A stretch of 64,000 bases of DNA from Petropleomorpha daqingensis (GTDB taxonomy: Bacteria; Actinomycetota; Actinomycetes; Mycobacteriales; Geodermatophilaceae). Below are positions 11,150 to 63,333 of the stretch, piece after piece. Both the position numbers and the translations under genes were made by a program. Location: positions 2,604,001 to 2,668,000 of the forward strand of contig NZ_JACBZT010000001.1 of NCBI RefSeq assembly GCF_013408985.1. The letters run 5' to 3'. Position 1 is the stretch's first letter. Each line of letters opens with the position of its first letter. The notes under the pieces were generated by a model. That model was not told the origin of the DNA. It was given only the letters and a program-made list of their open reading frames with translations, and ran no database searches.

Positions 11150-11162
11150 CCCCCTGAGTCCT

Positions 11163-11234
11163 CGCTCTTGCGGTGTTGTGCGCGCTCTTGCGGTGCTGCA
11201 GGACCGCGGAAGCACGAGTTCGACCGCTAGAGCG
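11163..11234. repeat. Nested palindromic intergenic repeat, family 1, copy A
   Basis: The unit CGCTCTTGCGGT occurs twice in direct orientation (11163-11174 and 11183-11194), followed by the CTGCAG centre (11196-11201) and degenerate inverted copies (11203-11212 and 11223-11234). The same plan recurs at 28982, 61955 and 62997. It lies between convergent genes. Confidence 0.7.
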
Positions 11235-11251
11235 GCGCCCCGCAACGCAGA

Positions 11252-22570: not shown

Positions 22571-22581
22571 TTCGGGCTGAC

Positions 22582-24950
<2,369 letters not shown>

Positions 24951-28946: not shown

Positions 28947-28981
28947 GTCGTCTTCGGAGAGCCTCGCCTCGGCGGCTCATT

Positions 28982-29047
28982 CTCGCGGCTCTCCTGCAGC
29001 TCTTGCGGTTCTGCAGGACCGCAAGAGCTGCAGGAAAACCGCGAGAG
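28982..29047. repeat. Nested palindromic intergenic repeat, family 1, copy B
   Basis: A perfect 17-bp inner stem (28993-29009 with 29018-29034), with CTGCAG in the loop, is enclosed by CTCGCGG/CCGCGAG outer arms. It lies between the convergent BI-1 and thiolase genes, just after a conventional terminator. Confidence 0.8.
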
Positions 29048-29059
29048 CGGCTCGGGACA

Positions 29060-41540: not shown

Positions 41541-41620
41541 GATCAGGTGCCCTGATCAACGGCTGTCCTCCCGCACCAACGTTGCCGCGGGAGGACAGTT
41601 TTTGATCAGGTCACCTGATC
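41541..41620. repeat. Twin palindromes (GATCAGG-CCTGATC) flanking a hairpin with T tract
   Basis: Two copies of a 21-bp unit (GATCAGGT, two variable bases, CCTGATCAACG) start at 41541 and 41604. Between them is a 12-bp stem (41563-41574 with 41587-41598) followed by TTTTT on the + strand. Both neighbouring genes are on the - strand. Confidence 0.7.
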
Positions 41621-53517: not shown

Positions 53518-53520
53518 CGG

Positions 53521-53562
53521 GGTTTCGCGTGCTTAACCGCGCGCGGTTGAGCACGCGAAACC
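53521..53562. repeat. Long palindrome, family 2, copy 2, between convergent genes
   Basis: A 42-bp palindrome with one T-G exception: arms GGTTTCGCGTGCT and complement around the same TAACCGCGCGCGGTTG core as copy 1 (22582-22627). The two arm changes relative to copy 1 are compensatory, so pairing is conserved. Confidence 0.8.
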
Positions 53563-53569
53563 GCGGGGA

Positions 53570-60847: not shown

Positions 60848-60898
60848 TGTCGCGACCAGACACGTTGTTGACAGTCGGCGTGGTGGCTTGATCACGAA

Positions 60899-60956
60899 GG
60901 AGACCTCCGGAAGGAGTGGCGGTGCTTGACGTCGCCGTTCCCAACCGGAGGTCTCC
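60899..60956 (+). promoter_or_regulatory. Perfect 12-bp hairpin covering the transposase ribosome site
   Basis: GGAGACCTCCGG (60899-60910) pairs exactly with CCGGAGGTCTCC (60945-60956), which ends directly before the original transposase start at 60957 and holds its GGAGG ribosome site. It may limit transposase translation. Confidence 0.6.
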
Positions 60957-61040
60957 GTGGCTCACGCTAATGCCCGCACGACTGTCTATGCCCGCAAGCT
61001 GATCGTCGCTCGTGTCCGAGCTGGTCACCGCCCCGGCGGA
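60957..61040 (+). pseudogene. Frameshifted N-terminal part of the IS481 transposase
   Basis: From the GTG at 60957 the frame encodes MAHANARTTVYARKLIV and on to RAGHRPG, a usual IS481 N-terminus. It then leaves the transposase frame because of one extra G in GGCGGAGG (61035-61042). Confidence 0.7.
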
Positions 61041-61911
61041 GGTCGCCAAGCAGCTCGGAGTGAGCCGCCAAACGGTCTACAAGTGGGTGCGCCGCTGGCG
61101 GGCCGAGGGCGAGGCTGGGCTGGCCGACCGCTCCTCGCGGCCGCATCGGCTGCCGCGGCGCACCTCGGCCGAGAGGACCGCGGCGATCGTGGCCGCGCGC
61201 AAGGCCCACCATGCCGGGCCGGTGCGGCTGGCCGCGATCCTCGGGCTGGCGGCCTCCACGATCGGGGCGGTGCTGCGCCGGGCCGGCCTGCCCCGGCTGG
61301 CCGACGTCGACCGGCTGACCGGCGAGCTGCTGCGCGGCCGCCGGCACAGCCAGGTCCGCTACGAACGCGAGCACCCCGGCGACCTGCTGCACGTGGACGT
61401 GAAGAAGCTCGGCCGGGTGCCGGTCGGCGGTGGCTGGCGCATCCACGGCCGCCGCGAGGAGGTGCGCGGGCGCGGCATCGGCTGGGACTACGTGCACGTG
61501 GCCATCGACGATCACACCCGGCTGGCCTACGCCGAGGTGCTGCCCGACGAGCGCACCGGCACCTGCGCCGGCTTCCTGACCCGCGCGGTGGCCTGGTTCG
61601 CCGCCCAGGGCGTGACCATCGCCCGGGTGCTGACCGACAACGCCAAGAGCTACCGGATCGGTGCCGCCTGGATCGCGGCCTGCGCCCAGCTGGGCATCGC
61701 CCGCCGGTTCATCAAGCCCGGCCGGCCCTGGACCAATGGCAAGGCCGAACGGTTCAACCGCACCCTGCAGAGCGAGTGGGCCTACGCCACCGCCTGGGCA
61801 TCGAACGAGGAGCGCACCGTCGCGCTGGACGGCTGGCTCGAGCACTACAACACTGCCCGTAGCCATTCCGCCCTCGGAGGTCACCCGCCGGTCAGCCGCC
61901 TCGCCGCGTGA
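61012..61911 (+). CDS. IS481-family transposase (DDE; 5' end lost to frameshift)
   Basis: 299 residues in the main frame, opening at a GTG at 61012. It has an HTH of the IS481 type (EVAKQLGVSRQTVYKWVRRWRAEGEAGL), then the rve/DDE domain: LHVDVKKLGRVP (first Asp), VLTDNAKSY (second Asp) and NGKAERFNRTLQSEWAY (Glu), ending HSALGGHPPVSRL. The catalytic triad is intact. Only the first 27 or so residues of the ancestral protein are out of frame. Translation from 61012 might still give an active protein, but its MSELVTAP start is not native, so activity is uncertain. Confidence 0.9.
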   Translation: MSELVTAPAEVAKQLGVSRQTVYKWVRRWRAEGEAGLADRSSRPHRLPRRTSAERTAAIVAARKAHHAGPVRLAAILGLAASTIGAVLRRAGLPRLADVDRLTGELLRGRRHSQVRYEREHPGDLLHVDVKKLGRVPVGGGWRIHGRREEVRGRGIGWDYVHVAIDDHTRLAYAEVLPDERTGTCAGFLTRAVAWFAAQGVTIARVLTDNAKSYRIGAAWIAACAQLGIARRFIKPGRPWTNGKAERFNRTLQSEWAYATAWASNEERTVALDGWLEHYNTARSHSALGGHPPVSRLAA

Positions 61912-61932
61912 ACAACCTGTCCGGTCACGACA

Positions 61933-61938
61933 TCTAGC
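61933..61938. repeat. IS target-site duplication, right
   Basis: TCTAGC, exact copy of 60842-60847. Confidence 0.9.
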
Positions 61939-61954
61939 GGGGCTCGCTCCCGCG

Positions 61955-62028
61955 GCACTCTTGCGGTCTTTCTCGTGCTCTCGCGGTCCTGCAGAACCGC
62001 AGAAGGACGAGAACGACCGCAAGAGTGC
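61955..62028. repeat. Nested palindromic intergenic repeat, family 1, copy C
   Basis: Perfect 14-bp outer arms (61955-61968 with 62015-62028), inner TTCTCGT/ACGAGAA and GCGGT/ACCGC pairings, CTGCAG centre at 61989-61994. It ends 4 bp before the stop of the AbiEi/DUF559-type gene. Confidence 0.8.
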
Positions 62029-62032
62029 TGCC

Positions 62033-62935
62033 TCAGCGGCGCGCGAACGCGCGGCGCAGCCGGTCGCCGATGACCAGCGGTGTGCCCAGCTCCCGCCAGA
62101 TCCAGCGGGCGACCTTCCAACCGTGATCGCGGATGTCGTCCTCGCGCAGCTTCTCCTCGAACACGGCATCGCCTGGCTCCTGGCCGGGCCGCAGCAACCG
62201 CCCGTACTTGATCCGGCCGTCGAACTCGGCGATGGTCCGGTGCTCGCGCCAGCCGAAGTCGCACCGGGCGACCTCGCTACCGTCGAGGCGGCGAAGCCTC
62301 ACCTGCAGGTCGGGAGCCGGCAGTCCGAGCCGCTTCATCAGCACGCGGCTGCGGCTCTCCCCGACGCTCTCACTGCGCCCGTCGGCGAACGCCACCACCC
62401 GGGCCGCCCGGCGCACTCCCGGCACGGCGCCCATGCGGGACAGGCGGTCGGAGAGCAGCTCTTTCGTCGTCCACCCGGTGGCCAGAGCGGCGTCGAGCGT
62501 GACGACGGCCTGCTCGAACGGCAGTGTGCGCGCGACGTCGACGGCGGTCCGGGAGAGGTCGGTGACCTCGAGTCCGTTCAGCTCCGTCACCTCGTCGTCC
62601 GCGAGACGGGCGATGTGCAGGTGGATGCGACGGGTCCCGCTACCGCTCGCCGGCGGCCGGCGCGTGATGTGCACCCGGTCGAAGCGGACGTTCCAGGTCG
62701 GCAGGCCGTGCAGCACGGCGGCCGAGAGATGGCTGACCACGCCGGGCAGGCGCAGCCCGGCGACAGTTGCCATCACGACGGCGGCGTGCCGCTCGTCGTC
62801 ACCTGCTGGCGGATCGCCGGGCGTGTACGTGCCGCGCTGCAACCGGACCAGCTCTCCGCGCCGGACGAGCCGGGCCAGTTCGTCGTCGGTCATCCCGTCG
62901 GCGAGGGCGGCGGCGCGGCGCAGCAGATCGGCCAT
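62033..62935 (-). CDS. AbiEi-like / DUF559-type protein (possible nuclease fold)
   Basis: 300 residues from the ATG at 62935, with GAGGA seven bases upstream. The N-terminal winged-helix-like region (DDELARLVRRGELVRLQRGTY) matches the opening of AbiEi-family antitoxin domains. The middle resembles the AbiEi core (VVSHLSAAVLHGLPTW ... VHITRRP). The C-terminus has a DUF559/Vsr-like segment: CDFGWREHRTIAEFDGRIKYG and FEEKLREDDIRDHGWKVARWIW, with D, E and K residues arranged as in PD-(D/E)XK nucleases. No AbiEii-type toxin gene is adjacent, so it is an orphan. It is bracketed by repeat copies C and D. Confidence 0.8.
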   Translation of the reverse strand: MADLLRRAAALADGMTDDELARLVRRGELVRLQRGTYTPGDPPAGDDERHAAVVMATVAGLRLPGVVSHLSAAVLHGLPTWNVRFDRVHITRRPPASGSGTRRIHLHIARLADDEVTELNGLEVTDLSRTAVDVARTLPFEQAVVTLDAALATGWTTKELLSDRLSRMGAVPGVRRAARVVAFADGRSESVGESRSRVLMKRLGLPAPDLQVRLRRLDGSEVARCDFGWREHRTIAEFDGRIKYGRLLRPGQEPGDAVFEEKLREDDIRDHGWKVARWIWRELGTPLVIGDRLRRAFARR

Positions 62936-62996
62936 GACCGGATCCTCGCGCCGATCCGACCGCCTCCACGAGAGCTGACACAGGGTTGTGGATGGT

Positions 62997-63069
62997 CGCT
63001 CTTGCTGTGATTTCGGTGCTCTTGCGGTGCTGCAGCACCGCAAGAGCCGGTGAACAACCGCAAGAGTGG
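62997..63069. repeat. Nested palindromic intergenic repeat, family 1, copy D
   Basis: A perfect 30-bp palindrome (63018-63047) centred on CTGCAG is enclosed by CGCTCTTGCTGT (62997-63008) and ACCGCAAGAGTG (63057-63068). It lies 61 bp upstream of the AbiEi/DUF559-type start and just after the stop of the 82-residue membrane gene. Confidence 0.85.
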
Positions 63070-63084: not shown

Positions 63085-63333
63085 CTAAGGGGCGGGGGAG
63101 GGCTCCTGGGGTGCGGCGTCCAGGTCGGCCGCCTCCGTGCCACGAACGGCGTCCTTGCGGCGCGGCTGGGCGGCGAAGCGCAGCAGCGCCACGACGACGT
63201 AGCCACCGAGCAGGCACCACGGCAGCCGGCCGGTCATCTCCTCGACGGTGAGGTCGCCGCGCAGGTAGAGCGCCAGCAGCGGCAGGGCCAGCACGAACCC
63301 GACCCCGAGCACGTCCCAGCGGAAAGGGCTCAT
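63085..63333 (-). CDS. Small two-helix membrane protein
   Basis: 82 residues: MSPFRWDVLGVGFVLALPLLALYL forms the first helix, then a short loop (RGDLTVEEMTGRLP) and a second helix WCLLGGYVVVALLRF, followed by a basic then acidic polar tail. The ATG overlaps the stop of the upstream gene by 4 bp, so the two are translationally coupled. No family recognised. Confidence 0.75.
   Translation of the reverse strand: MSPFRWDVLGVGFVLALPLLALYLRGDLTVEEMTGRLPWCLLGGYVVVALLRFAAQPRRKDAVRGTEAADLDAAPQEPSPAP

Follow-up and report, generated by a model that had tools for sequence, protein, structure and literature searches.

In a 64,000-nucleotide stretch of the Petropleomorpha daqingensis genome (contig NZ_JACBZT010000001.1, positions 2,604,001 to 2,668,000; hereafter the window), one gene encodes a 300-amino-acid protein with an AbiEi-like DNA-binding region and a putative C-terminal nuclease of the Vsr/EDxHD fold, and is bracketed by two copies of the same palindrome. 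Taken together, the analyses below make it probable that gene and palindromes constitute a single, two-part selfish element whose nuclease would recognize its cognate palindrome, cut at it and spread it. About evenly balanced, in our judgment, is the broader proposal that such elements make up a large and independently evolved class in Actinomycetota, in which AbiEi-Vsr nucleases would recognize their respective palindromes and copy them in concert with replication, often as several orthogonal systems per genome, convergent to the repetitive extragenic palindromes (REP) and their REP-associated tyrosine transposases (RAYT). Nucleases of this type are not known to mobilize DNA in such a manner.

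Encoded on the minus strand, the gene (62033..62935) extends from an ATG at 62935 to a stop codon at 62033-62035. The 3' palindrome (copy C, 61952..62031) starts 1 nt past the stop codon, and the 5' palindrome (copy D, 62999..63066), located by a dyad scan, stops about 63 bp short of the ATG; together they bound a cassette of about 1.1 kb (61952..63066, minus strand), an extent drawn from comparison of occupied and empty sites and from an allele swap bordered by the palindromes. Each copy folds as a single long hairpin (z -9.4 for C and -4.0 for D against shuffles), and copy C has a dyad score of 26 and reaches 82.5 bits with R1, the covariance model of this palindrome family. The bracketing by two nested palindromes reported in the first-pass annotation of the window stands out against its surroundings: a scan of 464 kb of the genome gave just 14 pairs of strong dyads spaced 0.4-2.5 kb apart, and C/D is by far the most alike of them (score 37), the next pair scoring 26 and the remainder 15 or less. 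The family palindrome is about 72 bp long and nested, with the form CTCTTGCGGT-N10-CTCTTGCGGT-N8-ACCGCAAGAG-N10-ACCGCAAGAG, and 13 copies of it align nearly gap-free. Among solo copies, the palindrome arms covary, with 107 cells changed on both sides where shuffles give 78.5 +/- 7, and every covariation measure drops when the arm pairing is slid (family 1 was examined likewise); because the sequences are related, this is support rather than proof. A known RNA family was rejected as an explanation of the palindrome, nothing coming close to a gathering score.

The protein itself divides into the AbiEi-like front and putative Vsr/DUF559-like nuclease end that had been proposed for it. The only Pfam match is AbiEi_4 (residues 7-39, E 3.6e-6), and the PADLOC AbiEi model matches with an E-value of 3e-21. 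Among members of the wider family that were scanned, PADLOC AbiEi models match 24/24, and the Pfam matches are AbiEi_4, MTES_1575 (REase_MTES_1575), DUF559 and AbiEi_1 and nothing else; a Y1 (HUH) transposase domain (Transposase_17) was not found in these 24, nor did Pfam return a DDE or other known transposase domain in them or in the cassette protein. The AlphaFold (AF2) model of the window protein has a mean predicted local distance difference test score of 94.9, and its top Foldseek matches are AbiEi of S. agalactiae (6y8q, E 2e-7) and Rv2827c (1zel). Weaker matches (E 0.13-0.19) are to the homing endonuclease I-Bth0305I (3r3p, prob 0.98) and to Vsr (1cw0, prob 0.97), and these we assign to the C-terminal domain. 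Since residues E194, D227 and E238 are unchanged in the alignment across distant paralogues, the nuclease domain is presumably kept active, as this invariance suggests.

The association between protein and palindrome extends well beyond the window. A strict homologous palindrome pair brackets 70/118 related genes vs. 1/548 other genes, and flank similarity under a stringent setting was found for 72/118 family genes vs. 2/548 controls, and for 14/36 genes in a phylum-wide sample (control genes were called by a simple GC-frame method). A gap-permissive flank-to-flank alignment was dropped in favor of the stringent version, as it gave 25-45% positives among ordinary genes. Across 80 named loci from Geodermatophilus, Modestobacter, Blastococcus, Pseudonocardia, Rhodococcus, Nakamurella, Jiangella, Nocardia and others, there were 46 strict pairs, compared with 11 non-focal pairs within the same 1.2 Mb. 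Palindromes, mostly of 60-80 bp across the family, occur on both flanks of most of the genes when the ten members in the P. daqingensis genome and 29 relatives are considered. Distances to the gene are regular: most 3' copies begin -25 to +30 nt from the stop codon, and most 5' copies end 85-200 nt ahead of the match start. The 5' and 3' copies are alike within a gene (similarity scores mostly 28-60, median 38) and unlike between genes (mean about 10), so that each protein lineage, including the paralogues within P. daqingensis, has its own palindrome. Palindrome similarity drops with protein identity (Mantel r 0.57; 0/2000 permutations), and the closest homologues in other genera, with 62-66% identical proteins, are bracketed by the same palindrome family. 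Further, among 25 genomes of the family, R1 palindromes are present in 13/15 with the window protein type and in 1/10 without it (p 2e-4), some of these hits being the cassette's own ends.

The first-pass annotation had suggested a self-contained system comparable to RAYT and REP, and this is supported in part, in that other genera share the pairing and most paralogues show it as well, with palindromes of another sequence. Its suggested check, that paralogues would be enriched for flanking family-1 palindromes, did not find such an enrichment; because each paralogue is flanked by its own palindrome family, that test would miss the effect. As to the range of arrangements, there are up to 14 related genes per genome; the cassette ends of two Jiangella members (L190 and L211) look less like simple palindromes than like long inverted repeats (flank similarity 71-83, in the inverted comparison only), and a distant member (L357, G047:C19) has a different arrangement, being bracketed by inversely oriented tandem repeats of about 75 bp (score 167).

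A second conserved feature is a DnaA-box-like site, CCATCCACA, located just inside the 5' palindrome of the window cassette (62987..62995, minus strand). The motif YY(G/A)TCCACAG is present at -80 to -140 in 106/119 relatives (89%), and at 110/119 loci TCCACA or the complementary sequence occurs within 200 nt upstream, most often in the form YYGTCCACAG and nearly always on the coding strand and at -80 to -140; the corresponding figures are 5% for random windows and 2% for control genes. The motif lies a median of 22 nt from the inner boundary of the 5' palindrome. The high-affinity DnaA box of Mycobacterium and Streptomyces is TTGTCCACA (PMC4285127), and YYGTCCACAG matches this consensus, making it a putative DnaA site by sequence match. 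The motif is not essential to the design, since it is missing from most of the phylum-wide sample (present in 2/36).

Comparison of genomes gave an indication of how the cassette behaves. In Geodermatophilaceae it occupies a single site between the same two convergent genes, with one full copy of the window type found, and a presence/absence comparison across relatives recovered both states of that site: G022 and G012 have about 1.16 kb between the neighbors, and in G002, G013, G010 and G021, in which the cassette is missing, the neighbor ends are 29, 73, 174 and 96 bp apart. The cassette-free site of G021 (L380, G021:C1:3027250-3027800, offset 232-274) contains an unrelated perfect small palindrome, CGTGCGTCCTCAGCCACCGACGTCGGTGGCTGAGGACGCACG. 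Modestobacter species whose flanks are 93-96% identical carry one of two alleles, with proteins 48-55% identical, and identity between the alleles breaks at the outer edges of the palindromes, near the stop codons of the neighbors, corresponding to a swap from palindrome to palindrome. Blastococcus L167 and L171 carry the gene in the opposite orientation to both flanking regions, and the breakpoints fall within the palindrome intervals; crosswise flanks point to inversion in Rhodococcus L201 and Pseudonocardia L175 as well, although the proteins there are divergent. The earlier notion of a dispersed cassette applies to the solo palindromes, which are indeed scattered, and not to the cassette, which is lost, swapped or inverted at one conserved site; this fixity across the family indicates that the gene itself seldom moves.

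Solo palindromes are present both in the window and elsewhere. The covariance model, on which the genome-wide counts for the window family rest, finds 15 places in the 5.38-Mb genome (G000), namely C, D and 13 solo copies, two of them in the window: copy A at 11161..11235 (G000:2615161-2615235) and copy B at 28976..29050 (G000:2632976-2633050). Palindrome families of other paralogues in this genome would reach up to about 139 copies when extrapolated from 464 kb, a rough procedure that gives 46 copies for the window family vs. the 15 found. In six Modestobacter genomes, 40 B-type solo copies group into sets of orthologues with two to five members each, leaving four singletons. One solo site is filled in two Modestobacter species and clean-empty in three, and another solo copy is missing from two species. 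B-type copies persist as fossils in Modestobacter genomes with a resident A-type cassette, and strict type switching of the solo palindromes after a cassette swap, which we had considered, is for this reason just partly true. At one site (L273; G041:C91:15797, G043:C3:611773, G044:C9:506347), the palindrome is B-type in one Modestobacter and A-like in others, and it looks as if palindromes there had converted type in place. With regard to gene context, 36/53 solo copies lie between convergent genes, compared with 13/137 control gaps, and 5/53 lie between divergent genes.

This distribution bears on an alternative that we consider unlikely, though the least so of those weighed, in which the palindromes are regulatory, the 5' copy being an autorepression operator, the 3' copy a bidirectional terminator, and the scattered copies a regulon or a set of terminators belonging to that protein. 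AbiEi antitoxins repress their own promoters by way of inverted repeats (PMC7319586), and both the position of the 3' copy at the stop codon and the excess of solo copies in convergent gaps would fit terminators. However, operators belong in divergent gaps, which the solo copies avoid, and the operator-regulon version was rejected on that ground. In addition, a terminator needs neither to share sequence with an operator nor to track protein lineage, a T-run terminator pattern was not found at copy D, and neither regulatory role accounts for the nuclease domain or for the joint swap of the gene and both palindromes.

A rather less probable alternative is that the palindrome is an independent REP-like repeat, or one like a miniature inverted-repeat transposable element (MITE), which by chance gathers beside these genes, as composite-unit ends would, the protein having no part in its spread. 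The survival of B-type palindromes in A-type Modestobacter genomes, where they have outlived their cognate gene, is in keeping with this, as are the several palindrome families of G000 at tens of copies or more. Nevertheless, such a repeat would not be expected to bracket this one protein family among hundreds of control genes, to differ by protein lineage, to keep regular spacing to start and stop, or to co-occur with the gene across genomes. Defense loci typically turn over their alleles while staying at a fixed site. Together with the PADLOC AbiEi matches and the nuclease fold, the turnover seen here is what favors the least probable alternative, a solitary defense or restriction factor (an orphan AbiE-type module) whose palindromes mark self DNA or restrain the nuclease, against which stand the lack of an AbiEii partner beside the window gene, the 0 matches in 50,697 phage records and 3 in plasmids, and neighbors that are not recognizable as defense genes.

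For the selfish element of gene and palindromes, the following mechanism can be envisaged. The AbiEi-like region would bind its own palindrome, a recognition that is plausible because AbiEi proteins bind inverted repeats at their promoters (PMC7319586). The Vsr/EDxHD-fold domain would then cut DNA at the palindrome, probably when it is extruded as a hairpin during replication, and repair of the break might copy palindromes, and occasionally the complete palindrome-gene-palindrome unit, into convergent intergenic gaps; the same repair might also convert cassette alleles and invert the cassette. The DnaA-box-like site in the promoter region may tie expression to the initiation of replication, DnaA being the putative link.

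Several observations weigh against this interpretation. No target-site duplication is evident at the one clean solo insertion, and the inserted piece is longer than the palindrome. In 464 kb, no solo copies of the L012, L014 and L017 families were found, and several paralogues have few solo copies. About 40% of the genes fail the strict pair test, mostly through decayed 5' copies; the E-values of the nuclease-fold matches are just 0.13-0.19, though the probability is high; the cassette stays at one site throughout the family; and in the phylum-wide sample the DnaA-box-like motif is as rare as given above.

Among the closest known parallels is RAYT with REP and bacterial interspersed mosaic elements, in which two REPs invariably flank the Y1 transposase gene (PMC2817692). 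Both systems have a gene between two cognate palindromes, a cognate palindrome for each protein lineage, dispersed extragenic copies and preserved dyads. By contrast, the enzyme here is AbiEi plus a Vsr-type nuclease and has no Y1/HUH match; the palindromes are mostly of the size given above, with no constant GTAG or CGTC head across the aligned copies; and the cassette includes a DnaA-box-like site, with many paralogous systems per genome. With the AbiE type IV toxin-antitoxin system (AbiEi) and Rv2827c, the window protein shares its N-terminal and middle fold (6y8q, 1zel) and likely the binding of inverted repeats, whereas here there is no toxin partner, an extra nuclease domain is present, and palindromes lie at both ends and scattered. 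The EDxHD enzyme I-Bth0305I and Vsr share the C-terminal fold (3r3p, 1cw0), and allele replacement at a fixed site resembles homing, but here no intron or intein was seen, and palindromic ends, scattered solo palindromes and an AbiEi-like DNA-binding region are added. Like insertion sequences and MITEs, the element is a short unit with inverted-repeat-like ends, non-autonomous solo copies, and occupied and empty sites. However, it is without a DDE or known transposase domain, each of its ends is itself a palindrome, its autonomous unit is at a fixed site, and no target duplication was seen; insertion sequences occur in many complete copies, each at its own site and with target duplications.

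Orphan genes annotated as AbiEi antitoxin or DUF559 are common in actinobacteria, and no known role for them was found in the literature searched. The association with palindromes gives these orphans a testable role and offers a likely source for several palindromic repeat families of these genomes. It also suggests that the logic of RAYT/REP was invented twice, with unrelated enzymes, and if the protein-palindrome pairs are orthogonal, they would provide a natural series of sequence-specific hairpin nucleases. No report linking AbiEi or DUF559 to palindromes was found in the open-access literature (subscription journals and preprints lay outside the search), and within that literature this looks like an undescribed kind of element.

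The cassette is flanked by a PhoH-type gene on one side, with an insertion sequence interposed, and by a gene at 63085-63333 on the other. The neighbors of the window gene are the PIN-PhoH gene, an IS481 transposase and two open reading frames without Pfam match; the first-pass annotation was thus correct that a partner toxin is lacking, as no AbiEii-like (nucleotidyltransferase) gene adjoins it, and no recognizable defense genes were seen among the cassette neighbors viewed. Carriage by phages or plasmids was rejected, as matches to the gene were 0 among 50,697 phage records and 3 only among plasmid records. The IS481-family transposase gene (61012-61911) lies within 60849-61935; the element probably has inverted ends and has inserted itself after the PhoH-type gene, before copy C. 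It does adjoin the cassette, as had been noted, and is merely a neighbor: it was not present at the relatives' cassette sites viewed, and as a single adjoining element it was rejected as the mover of the cassette. Elsewhere in the window, 22581-22625 and 53518-53568 contain a palindrome, GGTTTCGCGCGCTTAACCG..., of the family that brackets the paralogue L016 (G000:2835672-2836385) and is estimated at about 139 genome copies, and at 41563-41599 there is a palindrome resembling one beside the paralogue L011 (ACTGTCCCCCCGCACCAACGTTGGTGCGGGGGGACAGT).
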